A DNA stretch of 64,000 nt from Roseobacter ponti (GTDB taxonomy: Bacteria > Pseudomonadota > Alphaproteobacteria > Rhodobacterales > Rhodobacteraceae). Of the stretch, positions 34,714 to 45,043 are shown in pieces. Positions within the stretch are counted from its first letter, which is position 1; each line of letters begins with the position of its first letter. Where the stretch lies: NCBI RefSeq assembly GCF_012932215.1, contig NZ_CP048788.1, positions 1,736,001-1,800,000 of the forward strand, given 5' to 3'. The notes beneath the pieces were generated by a model. It was not told the DNA's origin. It saw only the letters and a program-made list of their open reading frames with translations, and did no database searches. The translations under genes and the position numbers were made by a program.

Positions 34714-37700
34714 ATGGGGGTGCGCAGGATCGAAAAGTCGCTGTTTCAGTTCATCTGGAAATATTCCAGGCGTGATCAGCTCGTGTTGCTTGTTTTCACG
34801 TGCACGCTGTTCCCGTTCCTGTTTCTGACCCTGGAGCTGCCCAAACGCATCATCAACGATGCGATCGGCGCACAGAATGCGACGGTATCTGTTCTGGGAG
34901 TGAATCTCAGCCAGGTCACCTTTCTGTGGCTGCTCTGCGGGGCGTTTCTGCTTGCGGTCCTGTGTCACGGCCTGCTGAAGATGCGCATCAATACGATGAA
35001 GGGTGTGCTGTCTGAGCGTATGCTGCGGCGTCTGCGGTTTGATCTTATTGCGCGCCTGCTGCGCTTTCCCAAGCCCTATTTCCGGCGCACCTCGCAGGGC
35101 GAGCTGGTGGCGATGATCACCGGCGAAACAGAGCCGATGGGCGGGATAATGGGTGACGCGCTGACACAGCCGGTGCTGCAGGCCGGGCAGATGCTGACCA
35201 TTCTGTTCTTTCTGTTCATGCAGAGCGTCTGGTTCGGGCTTGCCGCGATTGCACTGATCCCGTTGCAGGCCTGGCTCATTCCGCGCCTGCAGAGGCAGAT
35301 CAACCTTATGAACAAAGAGCGTATCAAAGAGGTGCGCCTGCTCGCCTCAATGATCGGAGAAAGCGCATCGGGCGCCAGTGAACTTCGCACCCACGGCGGC
35401 TGGCGTTACCGGCTTGCAATGGTGACAGACCGTCTGGGCGCCGTGTATCGCATCCGCTTTCAGATATACCAGAAAAAGTTCTTCATGAAGTTCATCAACA
35501 ACTTCATTACCCAGCTGACGCCCTTCTTTTTCTTTGCGGCAGGCGGCTATCTGGTGATCCAGGGCGCGGTATCTCTGGGTGCGCTGGTCGCAGCCCTCGC
35601 CGCCTACAAAGACCTCAGTTCGCCGTGGAAAGAGCTTCTGACCTATTACAATCAGGCCCAGGATATGAGCCTGCGCTGGGAAACCGTAGCTGAGAAATTC
35701 TCGCCTTCGGGCGAGGTCCGGGAAGAGCTGATGACAGGCCGGCCGGATGACATCCCGCATCTGAACGGACAGATCGAGCTTTCCGACGTGAGCGTCGCGG
35801 ACGGTGATGGGAACATTATTCTGGATAATATATCGGCGCAGTTTCCGGCGGGTCAGGTCATCGCGATCGCTGCCGCCAGCGAAGAGGACAGGCACGCCCT
35901 GACAGATGTTCTGACCCGCGAGGTGATCCCCCAGAACGGCCGGGTGACAATTGCCGGGCAGGATCTTTCGGACATGCACCAGGTCACGATTGCCGCCCGG
36001 ATCGGTCACGCCAGTTCGCGCCCGGTGTTGTTTCAGGGCTCCTTCGGCGAAAACGTGATGATGGGGCTGTCTCCGGCGCCCCGGGACACCGACAGCCCTG
36101 CCGATGCGGATCTGCTGCGCGAAGCGCTGGCGGCCGGTAACAGTGCTGATCCGTTCGGGGCGAGCTGGCTCGATCCGGGGCTTGCCGGCATAAAGTCCGA
36201 ACAGGAGCTGCGGGACTGGTGGCTGACGCTGGTGGATGCCATGGGCACCGGTGGGCCGCTTTTTCGCCGTTCACTTGATCAGATTATGGACCCGCAGGAA
36301 GATACACCGCTGGCGCGCGGTCTGGTCGCGGTGCGTCCGAAAGTACGTGCGGCCGTTCAGGAGGCAGGTCTGGAACGGCATGTCTTCCGGTTTGATCCTG
36401 ACGCCTATAACCCGGCGCTACCGGTTGCCGGGAATCTCTTTTTTGCAACCCTGCGCCGCCCGATGAGCCAGCACGAACTGAGCCGGCACAGTGAACTTTT
36501 CGCGGTTCTGGAGCGGCTTGGACTTGATGAGAGCCTGCTCGAGCTTTCCTGCGAGGTGACCGAACTGCTGAATCAGATTTTCGGAACGGACGGCACCGAA
36601 CACCCGCTTTTCCGCAAACTGGGACTGGACCCTGTTCTGTACGAAAAATCCGTTCAGGTTGTCCGGGCAAGGCGCGCAGATCCGGGCCGTGACCTCAATG
36701 AGGCTGACAAAGCGCTGCTTATGTCGCTGCCGTCTCAGATCTCGGCCGAACAGATCGGGCGGGCCTTTCCCGAAGAGCTGCGTCACCAGGTACTTGAGGG
36801 GCGCTCGCGTTTGACCCGGGAGATGCGTGATGCATTGAGCGATCTGTTTGCCCCGCTGAGCGAGGACCGTATCGCGCCGGGCCTGTCGGTTCTGGAAAAT
36901 GCGCTCTACGGAAAGGTGTCAGAGACAGCCGGTTCGCGCGGAGATGAGCTGCGCAGGATTGTCTCCGGTGTTCTGGAGGCCGAGGGTCTGCGGCCCCGGG
37001 TCATCGAACTGATCTATGATCTGAAACTGGGGCTCGGCGGCGGCGATCTGCCGGCGATTTTCGCCGAACCGCTCGCGCTTTTCCGTGCTGCCGTAAAACG
37101 ACCGGATATTCTTATTTTGGAACAGGCGCTTAACAGCTATGATCAGAGCGTGCGCATCGGTCTTCATAACAACCTGCGAAAACTGCTGCCGGACACGACG
37201 ATCATCTACATCAATGAAACCTTCGAGAGTGCCGATCCCTTTGACATCTATTTAGAGGTCGTGCAGGGGCGCCTTGTGTCCGATGCCGCCGTGGATGAAG
37301 TCATTGACGACTCCGCCGCGAGTGCTGATCTGATGCGAAAGGTACGCGCGCTTGAAGCCACGGATATGTTCTCCGGGCTCAGCCGCAAACAGCTGCGCCT
37401 GCTGGCCTTCGGATCCAAATGGTATTCGGCGCACCCGGGCGAAGTGATCTTTTCCAAAGACGACGACCCCGGGGACGGGGCTTACATGATCCTCTCCGGG
37501 CAGGCCGGGCTTTATAATCCTGACGGTAAGGACGGCGAGGTGCTTGTCGCCGAGGTCGGACCTGGCCGGCTGGTTGGTGAGCTTGGTCTGATCCGCAACG
37601 TGCCAAGGGCGCTGACCATGCGGGCAAGTTCTGACATTGAGGCCCTGCGTCTTGGTGCAGAGGAGTTTCTGGCGGTTGTGGAAAACGATGCGGCAACGTC

Positions 37701-37740
37701 CTTCAAGCTGCTTCAGGTCGTGGCCGGCTATACCTCCTGA
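34714..37740 (+). CDS. ABC-exporter-like membrane protein with dead ATPase and cNMP-binding domain
   Basis: The 1008 residues comprise six membrane helices of an ABC exporter (residues 20-310), a nucleotide-binding-type domain (350-865) and a C-terminal cyclic-nucleotide-binding domain (about 885-1005, with PGEVIFSKDDDPGDGAYMIL and GELGLIRNVPRALTM). The ATPase is degenerate: the Walker A position reads AAASEEDR (386-393) in place of GxxGxGKS/T, Walker B reads ILILEQAL (no D-E), the signature is not LSGGQ, and the H-loop reads IYINETFE without His. An extra 300 or so residues of mostly helical sequence lie between Q-loop (VLFQGSF) and Walker B. It cannot work as a normal ATP-driven pump; a cNMP-controlled sensor or scaffold is possible. 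Confidence 0.88.
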   Translation: MGVRRIEKSLFQFIWKYSRRDQLVLLVFTCTLFPFLFLTLELPKRIINDAIGAQNATVSVLGVNLSQVTFLWLLCGAFLLAVLCHGLLKMRINTMKGVLSERMLRRLRFDLIARLLRFPKPYFRRTSQGELVAMITGETEPMGGIMGDALTQPVLQAGQMLTILFFLFMQSVWFGLAAIALIPLQAWLIPRLQRQINLMNKERIKEVRLLASMIGESASGASELRTHGGWRYRLAMVTDRLGAVYRIRFQIYQKKFFMKFINNFITQLTPFFFFAAGGYLVIQGAVSLGALVAALAAYKDLSSPWKELLTYYNQAQDMSLRWETVAEKFSPSGEVREELMTGRPDDIPHLNGQIELSDVSVADGDGNIILDNISAQFPAGQVIAIAAASEEDRHALTDVLTREVIPQNGRVTIAGQDLSDMHQVTIAARIGHASSRPVLFQGSFGENVMMGLSPAPRDTDSPADADLLREALAAGNSADPFGASWLDPGLAGIKSEQELRDWWLTLVDAMGTGGPLFRRSLDQIMDPQEDTPLARGLVAVRPKVRAAVQEAGLERHVFRFDPDAYNPALPVAGNLFFATLRRPMSQHELSRHSELFAVLERLGLDESLLELSCEVTELLNQIFGTDGTEHPLFRKLGLDPVLYEKSVQVVRARRADPGRDLNEADKALLMSLPSQISAEQIGRAFPEELRHQVLEGRSRLTREMRDALSDLFAPLSEDRIAPGLSVLENALYGKVSETAGSRGDELRRIVSGVLEAEGLRPRVIELIYDLKLGLGGGDLPAIFAEPLALFRAAVKRPDILILEQALNSYDQSVRIGLHNNLRKLLPDTTIIYINETFESADPFDIYLEVVQGRLVSDAAVDEVIDDSAASADLMRKVRALEATDMFSGLSRKQLRLLAFGSKWYSAHPGEVIFSKDDDPGDGAYMILSGQAGLYNPDGKDGEVLVAEVGPGRLVGELGLIRNVPRALTMRASSDIEALRLGAEEFLAVVENDAATSFKLLQVVAGYTS

Positions 37741-38033
37741 ACTGCAGTATACAGCCGGACAAACCATCACCGGGCGGAGTGTGCCCATATGCCTCTGACA
37801 ATTTTTTGCTTGCTGGCCACCTGCGGGGGTGCTCCGGAGGTGGACAAATGCGGTGCATGCCCGTGGATCCTTTGATGGCCCCCCAAGCTGGCTTTCGGCA
37901 AAGCGCCTTATTATTAAACAGATCGCGTCGTCTGCGCGCAAAAATTAATCACGCCACGCGGGTTTGGCGCCAGGTATGCGTTAACACATTCGCCTGACGA
38001 CCGGTTAAGGCAGAGTAGCGGCCAGAACAAGGA

Positions 38034-38128
38034 AACTAGGGTTCCGCCGCCTGCGGGTCAGGTCCGAGAGTTTCCGCTGCTCCAGCAAATTCTGCAGCAG
38101 TACACGGCGGGGGAAAATCCCGGGAGAG
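38034..38128 (+). ncRNA. Guanidine-I riboswitch (ykkC-yxkD class)
   Basis: All the conserved blocks of the class are present in order: CTAGGGTTCCG (38036-38046), CAGGTCCGAGAG (38059-38070), ACACGG (38102-38107), and the 3' helix GGGGAAAATCCCGGGAGA (38110-38127). Between them, 38075-38100 can form a stem of GCTGC with GCAGC. The class binds free guanidinium and turns genes on. It lies about 95 bases before the start codon of the ABC importer operon, which includes a guanidine-hydrolase-type enzyme, so sensor and target agree. Confidence 0.93.
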
Positions 38129-38162
38129 CAATGTTCCGATCTGGTCATGTCTCTCACCTGCA

Positions 38163-38201
38163 GTTCTGTCGACGGCCATATCGATACTATTCCGACAGAA
38201 C
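38163..38201 (+). promoter_or_regulatory. Hairpin between riboswitch and start codon
   Basis: GTTCTGTCG (38163-38171) and CGACAGAAC (38193-38201) form a perfect 9-bp stem with a 21-base loop, ending 21 bases before the ATG and just before AAAAAGGAG. A shorter alternative, GAGAG of the aptamer (38124-38128) with CTCTC (38151-38155), would disrupt the riboswitch 3' helix. Together they could be the expression platform. There is no T-run, so control at translation or by Rho is likelier than intrinsic termination. Confidence 0.5.
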
Positions 38202-38221
38202 CTGAAAAAGGAGTATTATCA

Positions 38222-39280
38222 ATGGGCAGGCCTTCAAAACTGATCCTTTCTTTCCTTGCCGCTACGACGCTTGCCGGGGCACCCGCGACAGCGCAGGAAA
38301 AAACCGACTTCCGAGTTGCCTGGTCGATTTATGTGGGCTGGATGCCATGGGGTTACATGGAAGACAGCGGCATCATGGACAAATGGGCTGAAAAATACGG
38401 CATCGATGTCGAGATCGTGCAGATCAACGATTATGTCGAATCCATCAACCAGTATACGGCCGGTGCCTTTGACGGCGTCTCGGCTACAAATATGGACACG
38501 CTGAGCATCCCGTCGGGCGGCGGTGTGGACACGACCGCTCTGATCGTTGGTGACTATTCCGATGGTAACGACGCGGTAATCCTGAAAGGCGAAGGCGATC
38601 TGACGTCGCTGGCCGGCAAACCGGTGAACCTTGTTGAGCTGTCTGTGTCGCACTACCTGCTGGCCCGCGCGCTTGATTCCGTGGGGCTCGCAGAGCGCGA
38701 CCTTGACGGTGTGATCAACACGTCGGACGCCGATATGATCGCGGCATATACCACCGATGACGTTCAGGCCGTGGTCACATGGAACCCGCTGGTGTCGGCC
38801 ATTATGGAAGAACCTGGTGCCAACAAGCTCTTTGACAGCTCAGACATCCCCGGCGAGATCATCGATCTGATGGTTGTGAATACTGAAACGCTGGAGGCGA
38901 ACCCGGCCTTTGGCAAAGCACTGGCAGGTGCCTGGTATGAAACCATGGCCCTGATGGCCGCCGGCGATGAAGAAGCACTGACAGCGATGGCAGAGGCGTC
39001 TGGTACAGATCTTGCGGGCTATAAAGCGCAGCTCGACAGCACTGAGATGTTTTATGACCCGGCAGCTGCCGTTACCTTCACCGAAAGTGGCGAACTGCCT
39101 GACACGATGGTCAGCGTTGCGGAGTTCCTTTTTGACAAGGGCATACTGGGTGAGGGCGCGCCATCGGCTGATTTCGTCGGCGTCGCATACCCTGACGGCT
39201 CCACAACCGGGGACGCCGCCAACGTTAAGTTCCGTTTCGATACGACCTACATGCAGATGGCTGCGGACGGCGCGCTCTGA
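38222..39280 (+). CDS. ABC importer substrate-binding protein, probably for guanidine
   Basis: The start at 38222 is set by AAAAAGGAG and the signal peptide (ending PATAQ, about residue 25). The 352-residue mature protein is a NitT/TauT-like periplasmic binding protein with FRVAWSIYVGWMPWGYMEDSG, INDYVESINQYTAGAFDG and TNMDTLSIPSGGGVDT. This subfamily is usually found near urea carboxylase genes, enzymes now known to act on guanidine. The riboswitch upstream and the hydrolase downstream make guanidinium the likely ligand; aromatic residues in the N-terminal stretch would suit a cation. Confidence 0.9.
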   Translation: MGRPSKLILSFLAATTLAGAPATAQEKTDFRVAWSIYVGWMPWGYMEDSGIMDKWAEKYGIDVEIVQINDYVESINQYTAGAFDGVSATNMDTLSIPSGGGVDTTALIVGDYSDGNDAVILKGEGDLTSLAGKPVNLVELSVSHYLLARALDSVGLAERDLDGVINTSDADMIAAYTTDDVQAVVTWNPLVSAIMEEPGANKLFDSSDIPGEIIDLMVVNTETLEANPAFGKALAGAWYETMALMAAGDEEALTAMAEASGTDLAGYKAQLDSTEMFYDPAAAVTFTESGELPDTMVSVAEFLFDKGILGEGAPSADFVGVAYPDGSTTGDAANVKFRFDTTYMQMAADGAL

Positions 39281-39289
39281 GCCTTTGTC

Positions 39290-40105
39290 ATGCGCTGGAT
39301 TAACCGAACTCCGGGCCGGGCAGCAGCATTCTGTCTGATGCTGCTGCCGTTCGCGGCTCTCTTTATCGCCTACGCGCTCGGATCCGAGGCCCGTCTGGCC
39401 GATAATCCACAGGACAAACTGCTGCCTGCGCCGTCGAAAATCGCTGAGACGGCCGGGCGGCTGATAACCACTGCTGACCGTCGGTCGGGCGAGATACTCT
39501 TCTGGAAAGACACATTCGCGTCGTTGCAGCGGCTGGGCCTCGGGGTGGCCATCGCTGCTGTGACCGGGCTCATCACCGGTCTTGCGATCGGTCTATTTCC
39601 CTATGTACGTGCTGCCGCATCGGGGTTCGTGTCGGTGCTCTCGATGGTCCCGCCGCTCGCGGTTTTACCCATTCTGTTTATCGTTTTCGGACTTGGCGAG
39701 GTAAGCAAATTAGCGCTGGTGGTCATCGGTATCACCCCCTTTCTGATCCGGGATCTGTCGCAGCGGGTTCTGGATATCCCTTCGGAGCTTTTCGTCAAAG
39801 CGCAGACGCTCGGTGCATCGAGCACTGTGATAGCGCTGCGCGTGGCACTGCCGCTCGTCATGCCGCGCCTCATCCAGTCGGTGCGCCTTTCACTCGGGCC
39901 CGCCTGGCTCTTTCTGATTGCATCAGAGGCGATTGCCGCAGATGGCGGGCTTGGCTACCGCATCTTTCTGGTCCGCCGGTATCTCGCGATGGACGTGATC
40001 CTCACCTATGTCATCTGGATTACCCTGCTTGCGTTTCTCTTTGATTTTGCTCTGCGCCGCCTTTCGCAACGGCTCTTCCCCTGGGCAGGCGAGGACAGCC
40101 TGTGA
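39290..40105 (+). CDS. ABC importer permease, probably for guanidine
   Basis: The 271-residue protein has six hydrophobic segments and the EAA-like cytoplasmic loop ELFVKAQTLGASSTVIALRVALP that contacts the ATPase, as in NitT/TauT permeases (BPD_transp_1). FWKDTFASLQRLGLGVAIA marks the start of the conserved core. It follows the binding protein by 9 bases and overlaps the ATPase gene by 4, so it is one operon under the riboswitch. Confidence 0.93.
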   Translation: MRWINRTPGRAAAFCLMLLPFAALFIAYALGSEARLADNPQDKLLPAPSKIAETAGRLITTADRRSGEILFWKDTFASLQRLGLGVAIAAVTGLITGLAIGLFPYVRAAASGFVSVLSMVPPLAVLPILFIVFGLGEVSKLALVVIGITPFLIRDLSQRVLDIPSELFVKAQTLGASSTVIALRVALPLVMPRLIQSVRLSLGPAWLFLIASEAIAADGGLGYRIFLVRRYLAMDVILTYVIWITLLAFLFDFALRRLSQRLFPWAGEDSL

Positions 40106-40869
40106 GTTTTGTCAGTGTCTCCGGCGTTTTCAAATCCTACGGGCGCAGACCGGTTCTCGAAGCCGTTTCGCTTGAGGTTGCAGAGGGCGAGTTCATCTCG
40201 CTGGTTGGTGCCTCAGGCTGTGGCAAGTCGACGTTCCTGCGGATGCTGCTCGATGAAGAACAGCCAAGCCGCGGGACAATCCACGTGGACGGGATGCCGC
40301 TTACCGGCGAGCCGTCGCGAAACCGTGGTATCGTCTTTCAGCGCTATTCGGTATTCCCGCATATGTCGGTGCGCGACAACATCGTGGCGGCCACGGCTTT
40401 TCAGACCCGGTTCGGATGGCTGAACGGCGCGGCCAGGAAAGCGGCGCATGACGCCGCTGCAAAAACCCTTGAGCGTATCGGTCTCGGGCATGTTGCGGAC
40501 CAGTATCCGGCGTCGCTTTCCGGCGGCATGCAGCAACGCCTGGCCATCGCACAGGCGATGGCAGCGCGCCCGCGCATATTGCTTCTCGATGAACCCTTTG
40601 GTGCGCTTGATCCGGGCACAAGGCTGGCGATGCACGCCTTTTTACTGGAACTGCGTGCAGAGACCGGCATGACTGTCTTCATGGTGACCCATGATCTTGA
40701 AGAGGGTTTCAAACTGGGCGACCGTGTGCTGGTGTTTGATAAACCGCGCTGGGATCCGCAGGAACCGGAAGCCTATGGTGCTACGATAACTTACGATTTT
40801 GATGCCCGCGATGGCGGCATCCCCTATCAACGCCTTGAGGAGGACACCCATGTTTTTAAGCCCCGCTGA
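40102..40869 (+). CDS. ABC importer ATP-binding protein, probably for guanidine
   Basis: A complete ATPase of 255 residues: Walker A LVGASGCGKSTF, Q-loop VFQRYSVFPHM, signature LSGGMQQRLAIAQAM, Walker B ILLLDEPFGALDP and H-loop VTHDLEEG. Closest by eye to the NitT/TauT/SsuB class. The C-terminal 45 residues (DKPRWDPQEPEAYGATITYD) extend beyond the core. The last 20 bases overlap the hydrolase gene, whose ribosome site (GAGGAGG) lies within this gene. Confidence 0.94.
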   Translation: MSFVSVSGVFKSYGRRPVLEAVSLEVAEGEFISLVGASGCGKSTFLRMLLDEEQPSRGTIHVDGMPLTGEPSRNRGIVFQRYSVFPHMSVRDNIVAATAFQTRFGWLNGAARKAAHDAAAKTLERIGLGHVADQYPASLSGGMQQRLAIAQAMAARPRILLLDEPFGALDPGTRLAMHAFLLELRAETGMTVFMVTHDLEEGFKLGDRVLVFDKPRWDPQEPEAYGATITYDFDARDGGIPYQRLEEDTHVFKPR

Positions 40870-42115
40870 CCAATCGCGCAGCCATCACCCTGCCGATCAC
40901 ATCCGCGATGAGAAACGACGGCATCATCCGGATCTGTCCAAACTCATGGGCTGGAAAGCGATGCGCAAGGAGGCAGATATTCCCGAGGGAGAATGGGAAA
41001 AGGAGAAAGCCTGGGCGCTGCGGATGGGGCTGACGGCCGCCGATACCATTGAGGACCGTTCGATCCCGACATTCGCGCGCGGCGAACTGCCTCATTACGC
41101 GGGGATCAACACATTCCTCAAAGCGCCCTATACCGAAGATGTGACGGAGGTCGGCAATTACGACGCCACCGTTCTGGGCGCGCCATTTGACGGGGGCACG
41201 ACGTACCGGCCGGGTACACGGTTCGGCCCGCAGGGGGTGCGGAAAATATCGGCGCTTTACACGCCGTACAATTATGAGATCGGCGTTGATCTGCGGGAAG
41301 AGATGAGCCTGTGTGACGCGGGTGATATCTTCACCATTCCCGGCAATATCGAAAAGACCTTTGATCAGATCAGCAGGGCCGTGAGCCATGTTTTCTCCTC
41401 CGGTTCCATGCCGATAATCATCGGCGGGGATCATTCCATCGGCTTTCCCTGCGTGCGGGGTATTGCCGAGTGCACTTCCAAGAAAATCGGCATCGTGCAT
41501 TTTGATCGTCACGCGGACATTCAGGAAAAGGATCTGGATGAACGAATGCATACAACGCCTTGGTTTCACTCGACAAACCTTCCGAATGTGCCGGCAAAGA
41601 ACCTGGTGCAGGTCGGGATCGGCGGCTGGCAGGTGCCGCGCGAGGCAGTCAAAGTTGCCCGTGAGCGCGAGACGAACATCATCACCATGGGCGATATGGA
41701 AAAGATGGGTATCGACAAAACTGCTGAGATGGCACTGGAGATGGCCTGGGACGGGGTTGATATGGTCTATATGTCATTTGACATCGACAGTATTGACTGC
41801 GGCTTCGTGCCCGGGACCGGCTGGCCGGAGCCGGGTGGGTTCCTGCCACGCGAGGCCCTTGCGCTGGCATCCAAAGTGGCGGCTGAGGGGATCTGCGGGA
41901 TGGAGCTTGTTGAGGTTTCTCCCCCTTACGACCAGTCCGAGATAACAGCATTGATGGGAACACGCGTCATTGTTGATGTGCTGGGATCGCTTGTGTCCAA
42001 CGGCAGGATGGGCGCGCATCGCAAACATATCGATAAACCGGTCAGCCTGCCGATGGGAGACTATTCCGAAGAGACCCACGGCAAGCGCTGGTCCACCAGG
42101 GCGAGGAGCGAATAA
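40850..42115 (+). CDS. gdmH: Ureohydrolase, probable guanidine hydrolase
   Basis: The 421-residue protein belongs to the arginase/agmatinase fold. Metal ligands are H195 in GGDHS, D219, H221 and D223 in HFDRHAD, and D311/D313 in SFDIDSID. Two features set it apart from agmatinases: a long N-terminal region of about 100 residues, and PGTGWPEPGG with Trp325 where agmatinases have a small residue; from memory this Trp helps to form the guanidine pocket in the nickel enzyme GdmH. With a guanidine riboswitch and importer in front, it likely splits guanidine into urea and ammonia. Substrate and metal are inferred, not shown. Guanidinobutyrase is the alternative. Confidence 0.82.
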   Translation: MFLSPADQSRSHHPADHIRDEKRRHHPDLSKLMGWKAMRKEADIPEGEWEKEKAWALRMGLTAADTIEDRSIPTFARGELPHYAGINTFLKAPYTEDVTEVGNYDATVLGAPFDGGTTYRPGTRFGPQGVRKISALYTPYNYEIGVDLREEMSLCDAGDIFTIPGNIEKTFDQISRAVSHVFSSGSMPIIIGGDHSIGFPCVRGIAECTSKKIGIVHFDRHADIQEKDLDERMHTTPWFHSTNLPNVPAKNLVQVGIGGWQVPREAVKVARERETNIITMGDMEKMGIDKTAEMALEMAWDGVDMVYMSFDIDSIDCGFVPGTGWPEPGGFLPREALALASKVAAEGICGMELVEVSPPYDQSEITALMGTRVIVDVLGSLVSNGRMGAHRKHIDKPVSLPMGDYSEETHGKRWSTRARSE

Positions 42116-42567
42116 TGCCGCATGATCACCATCCGAACGACGCGCACAGCCACCATCATCACGACCACCCCGCGACCGGCCACAATCATGCGGACGCTGA
42201 GCACCTGCATTCGCATATGCATGATCACGATGAGGCCGCTGACCTGCAGATCCTGACGAACCAGTTCATTGACGGTTTTGTGGCTGCGAAAGACAAAATG
42301 GCCTACCTGCGCATTGCCGGGGTGCCTCTGGAGCTGGCCGATAAAGCGGGCGGCCCGTCGCTCAAACTGGTGGACGTGCATCTTAGTACTGAATGGCAGG
42401 TGGGCACGGCTTCGCCCTCATTTGGATCTTCAGAACTCAGCTATCTGCCGTATCCTGGCGAAATGGTAACCGAGCGCACTAATATGGGTTTTGTGTATGT
42501 CTCGCTGAAAGCCAAGGATACTGTGGATCTGCGCGCGTTCATAGCAGGTAAGGCGGGGCCGGACTGA
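42115..42567 (+). CDS. Histidine-rich protein, candidate metal chaperone of the guanidine operon
   Basis: This 150-residue protein carries 16 His among residues 3-38, in clusters such as HSHHHHDH and HLHSHMHDHD, mixed with Asp: a metal-binding tail of the kind seen in nickel storage or delivery proteins (HypB, UreE, SlyD). The rest (45-150) is a compact domain I do not recognise, with AYLRIAGVPLELADKAGG and PSFGSSELSYLPYPGEM. Its start overlaps the hydrolase stop. In cyanobacteria the nickel guanidine hydrolase needs HypA/HypB-like helpers; none are here, so this protein may take that job. This is inference. Confidence 0.85.
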   Translation: MPHDHHPNDAHSHHHHDHPATGHNHADAEHLHSHMHDHDEAADLQILTNQFIDGFVAAKDKMAYLRIAGVPLELADKAGGPSLKLVDVHLSTEWQVGTASPSFGSSELSYLPYPGEMVTERTNMGFVYVSLKAKDTVDLRAFIAGKAGPD

Positions 42568-42807: not shown

Positions 42808-44805
42808 TCAGCCGGCAATCCTCAGCTTTTCGGTTTTTGTCGCAGGCTGGGGGATGGTGAAGGAGACCCTGCATCCCCTTGGCTCTGCGCCTGAAATTTC
42901 GATCGTGCCGCCCCATCGTTCGACTGTCCGTTTGGCAAAAGCGAGGCCAAGCCCGGTCCCTTCCTCGCTCGCGGAGAGCCTCTTGAAGGGCTCAAAAACC
43001 GTTTCGCGCGCACTTTCGGGAATTCCGGGGCCGTCATCGGTCACAATGACTTCGATGCCGGAGCCGCGCGGGGTGAATTCCACACTGATCGTTCCTGTCT
43101 CCTGGTCGTGGTATTTTCCGGAGTTTGAGATCAGATTGCGCAACACGGCCTGAAGAGCCGTTACATTGGCATAAATTTCCTGCTCTGTGTCGTCAAAACA
43201 GATGTTTATACCCGGCCTGCGGTACACCAGTTCCAGTACACTGGCGCGCAACTCATTCAGATCTGCGCGCTCGACCGGAAGATCAGAGGCGGTATCGTCG
43301 GCATAGCGCAGAAGGTCATTGATGAGCCGCGACATGCGGTGAGAGAGCGTGCCCATCAGATCCCAGTGTCCCTGAATGACTTCCGGAACAGTCTGGCTGT
43401 TCTCTTCGAGATCATCGGTGATGAACTGCATCAGCATCCTCAGCTGAATGAGTGGTGCATTCAGGTCATGGGCCGCGATGGCGGCAAAGGTCCGCAGCCG
43501 ATCGTTTGAATCCTTCAGCTGTTCGGCCTGGTCGCGGATCATGTCCTGCTGTTTCTGCAGCCGGGTGACATCCACCCTGAGTGAGGCGTAATGATGCCGT
43601 CCCAAGGGAAACTCGCTGGCCTCGAAAACCCTTTGGGTCCCGGTGAGAACGGTCCGCGCATCAAGCTGTCCGGCGGAGATGGACGCCACGATCTTGTCTG
43701 CAAATTCCAGAGCATTTTCCTGATCCTGTCCGGTTTCCTGTATGAGACCGGTGGTGACAGAAACGATAGTGCGCATGTCTGTACCTGCTTCAAGCAGATC
43801 CCTGGTTTCCGGAAAAATCCGGGTGAAGCCGCAACTCCAGTGTACCGCGCGCAGATCTGCGTCATAGATGACAATCGCTGCTCCGACTTCATCAAGTGCT
43901 GCCACAAGGAGTTCGCCGGCCTCGTTCTGTGCGCGCAGGCGCAAGCTGTCGTTTTTGTGCCGCTGACGGCTTGCGGCAAGAATGCCCAGAGCGAGTGTTA
44001 CAGATCCGGCAACGGCGATCGCCCACCAGAACAGGGGGTAGTCTGTCAGCGTTTTAGGGCGACCGAACCACAGCGCGTTCAGAACTGTGAGCTCGCGCGG
44101 CGTGATTTCTACGGCGATCGCGTCGTTCAGCGCCTTCTGAAGTCCGGGCCGGTCAAGAGCTGTGAAAAACCCGGAAGGCCGCGAAATAAGAGCAGGCCTG
44201 AGCGCCCGTGTGAACTGTTCGACGTCCGCCTGTCGCAGCCTTTTCCGGAAACTGTCGCCCGGGGAGACGACCGCGTCCACGTCGCCGGCAAGAAGAGCCA
44301 CGATCATCTGATCCCCCTGATCAAATTCAACGATCCTGGCAAAGGGGATCTGCTGTGCGCCGGTCACGGTAAAGCTGCCCGCAACCACGCCGATCTTTTT
44401 GCCGGAAAGATCTGCTACTGTCTGCACACCGCCTTTGTCCCGCACGAAGGCCAGCAGCTCAAATGCGCCGAGCACATCAGTCGGCAGGCCAAGTGCAAGA
44501 CGCTCTTCTGTCATCGCGAGAAGGGAGCTTACATCCGCCTCACCAGAGCCGATCATTCGCAGGCTTTCGGCCGGATTGGGTGAAGGAATAAATTCCAGCC
44601 GGTATCCGGCTGCACCTGCCAGTCTGCGCATCAGGTCAATTGAAAATCCACGCGCGTTTCCGTCAGAATTCGTGAAGGAATAGGGATTGAACTCTTCGTA
44701 AGCCATCCGGATTACCGGCTGATCTGACGCTGCCGGTTGCACAGACAGTGCGACTGCAATCGCAAGGCACAGCAGCCGGGCCAGCAGGGTAAGCCTTGTG
44801 ATCAT
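42808..44805 (-). CDS. Sensor histidine kinase with periplasmic solute-binding domain
   Basis: The ATG at 44805 begins a signal peptide (LLARLLCLAIAVALS, ending AASDQ). The 665-residue protein has an SBP_bac_3-type periplasmic domain (residues 30-255: IRMAYEEFNPYSFTNSDG, GEADVSSLLAMTEERL), one membrane helix (about 265-285), a PAS-like domain (AIVIYDADLRAVHW), a dimerisation domain with the phospho-His in AAIAAHDLNAPLIQLRML, and an ATPase with NLISNSGKYHD, VTDDGPGIPES and GTGLGLAFAKR. It senses a small solute, perhaps an amino acid or a cation. No response regulator gene is adjacent, so its partner is elsewhere. Confidence 0.93.
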   Translation of the reverse strand: MITRLTLLARLLCLAIAVALSVQPAASDQPVIRMAYEEFNPYSFTNSDGNARGFSIDLMRRLAGAAGYRLEFIPSPNPAESLRMIGSGEADVSSLLAMTEERLALGLPTDVLGAFELLAFVRDKGGVQTVADLSGKKIGVVAGSFTVTGAQQIPFARIVEFDQGDQMIVALLAGDVDAVVSPGDSFRKRLRQADVEQFTRALRPALISRPSGFFTALDRPGLQKALNDAIAVEITPRELTVLNALWFGRPKTLTDYPLFWWAIAVAGSVTLALGILAASRQRHKNDSLRLRAQNEAGELLVAALDEVGAAIVIYDADLRAVHWSCGFTRIFPETRDLLEAGTDMRTIVSVTTGLIQETGQDQENALEFADKIVASISAGQLDARTVLTGTQRVFEASEFPLGRHHYASLRVDVTRLQKQQDMIRDQAEQLKDSNDRLRTFAAIAAHDLNAPLIQLRMLMQFITDDLEENSQTVPEVIQGHWDLMGTLSHRMSRLINDLLRYADDTASDLPVERADLNELRASVLELVYRRPGINICFDDTEQEIYANVTALQAVLRNLISNSGKYHDQETGTISVEFTPRGSGIEVIVTDDGPGIPESARETVFEPFKRLSASEEGTGLGLAFAKRTVERWGGTIEISGAEPRGCRVSFTIPQPATKTEKLRIAG

Positions 44806-45043
44806 TTTCCGACCCGTTCGTTTCACAGCAGGAAGGGTACGCAGGTGCGGGTGAATCAAAAGTAAAGGCGCAGGGGCCGGTTCCGGCCATTTTTAATCAT
44901 AGAGACGCAGGCCGGGCCCGGGCATCTCAGGCCCATGCCGGCGATAATGCGGTATCCCTGCGTTTCCGGACATCGCGCCACGGCCACGGGCACACCATAA
45001 AATCTTGCCAGAAATTAATATTTTTGCGAGCATTCCTGTGCGT

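Follow-up and report, generated by a model that had tools for sequence, protein, structure and literature searches.

A 64,000-nt stretch of the Roseobacter ponti genome (G000:C1:1736001–1800000, hereafter the window; genome size 3.96 Mb, completeness 99.94%) carries an operon of a known type, solidly supported and comprising a guanidine-I riboswitch, an ATP-binding cassette (ABC) importer and a guanidine hydrolase (guanidinase; GdmH), with one new part, a histidine-rich protein of 150 residues for which we coin the name HisP. Judging from the families of its parts, the operon very probably imports guanidine and hydrolyses it to urea and ammonia. For HisP, the linkage to gdmH, the absence of the usual partner and the amino acid composition point to a role in supplying nickel to GdmH, to which we assign a probability of roughly 0.65. 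Users of current annotations should be aware that gdmH and hisP genes are listed there as agmatinase family protein and hypothetical protein, respectively. The elements of the operon are:

38025–38128 (+), guanidine-I (ykkC-yxkD) riboswitch aptamer; RF00442, 77.6 bits, gathering score 63
38163–38201 (+), candidate expression platform: hairpin GTTCTGTCG / CGACAGAAC in the leader, downstream of the aptamer and ahead of the ribosome-binding site
38222–39280 (+), ABC importer, substrate-binding protein; TIGR03427, 531.5 bits, equivalog cut-off 333.9
39290–40105 (+), ABC importer, permease; PF00528, 66 bits
40102–40869 (+), ABC importer, ATPase; PF00005, 121.2 bits
40850–42115 (+), gdmH, guanidine hydrolase (guanidinase) of the arginase superfamily; PF00491, 256.6 bits, and nearest solved relatives
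42115–42567 (+), hisP, His-rich N-terminus plus folded domain, proposed nickel-delivery partner of GdmH; follows gdmH in 80/80 loci

The ATPase gene overlaps gdmH by 20 bases and gdmH overlaps hisP by one (TAATG), which fits a single operon. An earlier sequence-only reading of the window had already placed a His-rich protein last in the operon, where we confirm it at 42115–42567, but had given that protein no role.

HisP and its linkage to gdmH

A HisP domain is encoded beside gdmH, following it, in all 80 related loci, which represent the best 80 of 567 relatives from a contig scan and are hence near relatives of the window. Within the genus sample, hisP accompanied gdmH in 10 of 10 gdmH-bearing members (window counted). 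With start codons chosen by motif, hisP began inside the end of gdmH or at most 10 bases after it in 65 of 78 cases.

Two whole-genome samples, overlapping in that both contain G000 and G125, were then compared. Among 289 genomes of the class, nine GdmH-type matches (E of 1e-70 or better) comprised seven true GdmHs and two divergent proteins (G082 and G097, the latter with Thr at the Trp position; L047). HisP matches were likewise found in nine genomes, namely the same seven with true gdmH plus G143 and G201, i.e. in 2 of the 282 others. The G143 match extends over 84 residues with an internal stop and has no gdmH within 13 kb, and that of G201 covers 34 residues in a His run. Of the 398 genomes sampled from the phylum, seven—all belonging to the window's class—contain gdmH, and the same seven have HisP; an eighth HisP match (G520; 1 of 391 other genomes) spans 34 residues and scores 23.6 bits. 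Fisher's test for co-occurrence, leaving G201 out of the class sample and treating G143 and G520 as genomes with HisP but no gdmH, returned ~3e-13 (class) and ~3e-14 (phylum), both uncorrected for kinship of the genomes. HisP was also present in six further gdmH stretches (L141–L146) and on Sinorhizobium fredii pNGR234b (L151), and the gdmH–hisP operon is widespread in Rhodobacterales and extends to other Alphaproteobacteria. Since G383 retains the riboswitch directly before gdmH, then hisP, with no importer gene within 13 kb, HisP goes with the enzyme rather than with the importer. An orphan HisP fragment (L162:7103–7348; 57% identity, internal stop) lies behind a gene that by eye encodes an FtsX/MacB-like ABC exporter, with no gdmH within 13 kb.

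Window HisP contains 16 His in residues 1–39 and a single one in the remainder, its N-terminus following the pattern MPHD...GHNH...HLHSH. In an alignment of 66 members, whose start codons were chosen with preference for this motif, 59 start with MPHD; an MH start characterizes four Hyphomicrobiales-type members and L033. HypA proteins start with a nickel-binding Met-His-Glu, which the N-terminal His site of HisP might plausibly parallel. In the predicted structure (mean predicted local distance difference test score, pLDDT, 80; predicted template modelling score, pTM, 0.63), residues 1–36 are unstructured and precede helices at 37–57 and 61–67, strands at 83–96, 118–129 and 134–138, and a helix at 139–147, with a weaker loop at ~97–117.

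HisP apparently constitutes an undescribed protein family. The window protein had no match in Pfam or NCBIfam, including the HypA, HypB and UreE models; the 66 members together gave weak hits here and there in these collections, all to unrelated models (best E 0.0049); no relative was found by sequence in the PDB; and among the 136 matches that a fold search listed there up to an E of 10, no E value was as low as 0.001. A known chaperone was consequently rejected as the identity of HisP. COMM-domain proteins occupy eight of the first 17 rows of the fold search (best E 0.59, not significant) and share the strand-strand-strand-helix order with the end of HisP, which we take as a lead only; a literature search for bacterial COMM proteins retrieved no paper. 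Literature searches covering open-access texts listed no paper naming HisP together with GdmH. A word search of PMC11410670, PMC11271267 and PMC12186494 found no occurrence of 'histidine-rich' or 'histidine', and 'His-rich' in PMC11399263 refers to HypB.

Proposed nickel supply to GdmH

Research into the use of guanidine as a source of nitrogen is still young and, to our knowledge, nickel loading of guanidinase has been solved for the HypA/HypB type only. In Synechocystis, GdmH is served by the HypA/HypB-type nickel proteins GhaA and GhaB of the sll1077–sll1082 operon (PMC8390497, PMC10094980, PMC12186494). The Synechocystis and window operons are alike in guanidine-I riboswitch, SsuA-type substrate-binding protein, permease, ATPase and GdmH; however, HypA/HypB-type nickel-delivery genes are absent from the window operon, and hisP follows gdmH instead. 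The metformin hydrolase operon (hypA, hypB, two ureohydrolases and hupE) also combines a nickel-dependent ureohydrolase with adjacent nickel-supply genes, hupE lying beside hypA and hypB, but differs in its heteromeric enzyme, in its substrate and in having HypA/HypB where the window has HisP (PMC11399263).

HypA had no match in the window genome and HypB none above cut-off, the best (63 vs. 121 bits) falling inside ureG of the urease cluster. HypA also lacked a match above cut-off in 16 of the 21 genomes with both gdmH and hisP, and HypB exceeded its cut-off in two of the 18 genomes examined for it, a set that includes G143 and G097, both devoid of true gdmH. Three weak matches to the HupE/UreJ permease, scoring 30 to 36 bits against a cut-off of 23, were obtained in the window genome, none of them in the vicinity of gdmH, and some such match in 16 of the 21 gdmH- and hisP-containing genomes. 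On the symbiont megaplasmid pNGR234b of S. fredii NGR234, a HupE/UreJ permease gene stands directly after gdmH–hisP (L151:8758–9348).

HypA, HypB (in its His-rich forms), UreE with its His tail and Hpn are His-rich nickel proteins. HisP resembles them in its His-rich end, small size and nickel-enzyme context, and differs in lacking a Pfam or NCBIfam sequence match and a significant PDB fold match. On the enzyme side, the motifs HP[DNE] near the N-terminus and D[KQR]P at the C-terminus of GdmH, both loose patterns, occur in 80/80 loci, and the full tail form HKxxIDKP is visible in most tails inspected. This C-terminal tail, which could be the docking site of HisP, is missing from the GdmHs of L147–L149 (L147 has a similar HHHPE near the N-terminus). 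A tree of 26 GdmH-type proteins unites all 19 HisP-linked ones in a group adjoining Synechocystis (support 0.90 as printed after re-rooting).

We propose that HisP, translated from a start codon overlapping the gdmH stop, would take the place of the Synechocystis GhaA and GhaB: its flexible N-terminus may collect Ni(II), and its folded domain may dock on GdmH and pass the nickel over. Whether HisP represents a new nickel-insertion family dedicated to guanidinase—one small protein that lacks a nucleotide-binding motif, stands in for both HypA and HypB, gathers nickel through its His-rich N-terminus and docks, by means of a new fold, on a clade-specific GdmH tail—is more tentative, and we rate this elaborated version slightly below even odds. 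Being widespread in Rhodobacterales and present in other Alphaproteobacteria, the operon would represent a ready system for testing GTPase-free nickel hand-over.

Several observations weigh against a function of HisP in nickel supply. HypA scored above cut-off in 5 of the 21 genomes with gdmH and hisP, albeit elsewhere in the genome and never beside gdmH, and GdmH could also be supplied by the chaperones of urease. Just 2 of 100 loci (L151 and L154, the latter from G458) have a HupE/UreJ gene after hisP. Actinomycetota gdmH loci with the Trp (L147–L149) have no HisP; a further one, L150, lacks both HisP and the Trp, and L147 carries the riboswitch. Three HisP members (L036, L037 and, as cut here, L117) are poor in His, so that the His tail is not indispensable. 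Furthermore, His runs occur in storage or sink proteins, too. Finally, some guanidinases seem to manage with no linked partner, as comammox guanidinase loci, too, are described without nickel chaperones (PMC11410670).

HisP might alternatively be a store or sink for nickel (or zinc), shielding the cell from surplus metal drawn in while it grows on guanidine and passing none directly to GdmH. The length of the His run varies strongly (1 to 28 His among 66 members), as expected of a sink, and HisP bears no enzyme signature; yet conservation within the protein is highest in the folded domain, which persists in members with a short His run (L036, L037), and HisP is tied to gdmH, other settings in the two whole-genome samples being limited to G143, G201 and G520. 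We therefore consider a mere metal store unlikely. HisP could also belong to the GdmH enzyme as a subunit with a structural or regulatory role in stability, assembly or allostery, its His run being incidental. Matched synthesis, as suggested by the overlapping genes, and the HKxxIDKP-type tail shared by HisP-linked GdmHs and not seen in L147–L149 would fit such a subunit, but an N-terminal His run is ill-suited to a purely structural role and the purified guanidinase hexamer of N. inopinata is active without such a partner (PMC11410670), rendering this alternative improbable as well.

Probable guanidine import and hydrolysis

The sequence-only reading had recognised a ureohydrolase with a guanidine-type Trp loop behind an ABC importer of the urea-carboxylase-associated subfamily, and both assignments hold: the enzyme matches PF00491 and carries the loop GTGWPEPGG (Trp325) as well as all four published diagnostic residues, and the substrate-binding protein exceeds the TIGR03427 equivalog cut-off by a wide margin. 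Compared with solved structures, window GdmH scored 552 bits against Synechocystis GdmH (7esr/7oi1) and 547 bits against the N. inopinata guanidinase (9fek), followed at a distance by the next at 176 bits; identities amount to 66% (356 residues compared) and 64% (358 residues), respectively. For a protein to count as a guanidinase, PMC11410670 requires Thr105, His222 and Trp313 of the N. inopinata enzyme, and it marks Glu344. Their window counterparts are Thr118, His234, Trp325 and Glu355, an assignment that rests on a constant shift, the chain index of the structure being two below the numbers of the paper. All four residues are common to the 80 loci, the strict pattern having returned the Trp in 79 and L116 having it, too. 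The GdmH of Roseobacter sp. isolate Ww482 is 99% identical to that of the window. Next to the metal ligands (41480–41560, GdmH residues 218–225), the window and 80/80 loci read HFDRHADIQ, as opposed to HFDRHVDTQ in the two characterised guanidinases.

An ordinary agmatinase or guanidinobutyrase, with riboswitch and importer serving detoxification, is highly improbable: although relatives bear the NCBI name 'agmatinase family protein' and the agmatinase models PRK02190 and TIGR01230 match window GdmH below their cut-offs, we rejected this identity based on the structure distances (552 vs. 176 bits) and diagnostic residues, and the transcript's own guanidine-I riboswitch further argues for a guanidinase.

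GdmH-like ureohydrolases of ~55% identity and without HisP are encoded at L047:1489–2658 (the same G097 gene as L163:6253–7422) and at L046:1492–2265 (G082). The former has GTGTPEPGG in place of GTGWPEPGG, and the L046 contig ends before that site. This divergent type contains a His-rich insertion after DERMHTTPW and possibly acts on another guanidino substrate using a built-in metal loop.

Hydrolysis to urea and ammonia, the route favoured by the earlier reading, stands by homology, considering the RF00442 and TIGR03427 matches and the guanidinase type of the enzyme. No urea or guanidine carboxylase above cut-off was found in the genome, 11 sub-cut-off matches resembling other biotin-dependent enzymes, and urease alpha is present in a cluster whose remaining genes, judged by eye, are ureD, ureA, ureB, ureE (His-rich at one end), ureF and ureG. 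With an importer, no carboxylase above cut-off and a urease cluster, hydrolysis followed by urease is the likely route. Guanidinium would thus be carried into the cell by the ABC importer and split by GdmH, presumably at a nickel-containing two-metal site like that of its close homologues, and the urea would be finished by the genome's urease.

This riboswitch–importer–guanidinase plan is not new but published for Synechocystis (PMC8390497, PMC12186494). Nitrospira inopinata (PDB 9FEK) also combines a guanidine-I riboswitch with a guanidinase, but employs an APC permease where the window has an ABC importer, and the accessible text on it describes neither a nickel chaperone nor HisP. In G114 (L160), an operon without riboswitch match is immediately preceded by a UreG-like gene, with urease alpha further upstream.

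The riboswitch and its leader

The riboswitch, previously read by eye at 38036–38127, is contained in the RF00442 match at 38025–38128, which scores above the gathering cut-off of this ykkC-yxkD model, is full length (model positions 1–107 of 107, E 4.2e-12; covariance-model search) and is the only guanidine-I match in the genome. The aptamer is separated from the start codon of the substrate-binding protein gene by 93 bases. By analogy with other members of the riboswitch class, binding of guanidinium to the leader RNA would turn on the downstream genes, making this a nitrogen-scavenging operon induced by guanidine.

When ten related loci were searched with Rfam, the riboswitch was detected in nine; the tenth, L043, is a 4-kb piece too short upstream to reach it. 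A second model, built on the window and these nine loci (which match by construction), identified the aptamer in 76 of the 80 loci, with truncation by a contig end in one case, implying that the riboswitch occurs at gdmH more than by chance. Two of the four remaining loci, L094 and L098, provide just 2.7 and 0.8 kb of upstream DNA; in L126 and L137, the same model gave no match over 7 kb upstream. It also matched 21 of 28 further stretches, which include all nine genus members retrieved (L022–L030), themselves in part repeats of loci among the 80, and found no aptamer in the Actinomycetota stretches L148, L149 and L150 or in L159, L160, L162 and L163. The contig of L159 starts just before the importer.

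Between aptamer and ribosome-binding site, a conserved hairpin pairing GTTCCGCC with GGCGGRAC is found in the window (38163–38201) and related leaders, and 49 of 76 leaders have it with a GTTCYG 5′ arm. Two-sided changes affect four of nine pairs in 35 sequences, a level reached by 4 of 500 shuffles; the fraction of paired cells equals that in shuffles (90.2% vs. 89.9%), while the ninth pair fails to form in 27 of the 35 rows. Because the 35 sequences were picked for pairing, this covariation supports the hairpin weakly. The window leader is unremarkable in its folding (z −0.74), and a terminator was rejected, as no run of U stands behind the hairpin. In other leaders, a GGTCA...GGGGACC pairing covers the ribosome-binding site, a feature suggestive of translational control. 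Guanidine-I riboswitches have been described as transcriptional (PMC12186494).

The operon is flanked downstream by a convergent gene (42808–44859, −) that encodes a family-3 solute-binding domain fused to PAS and histidine kinase domains, and upstream by a gene (34714–37740, +) for an ABC exporter-type protein of 1008 residues with a C-terminal cyclic-nucleotide-binding domain.

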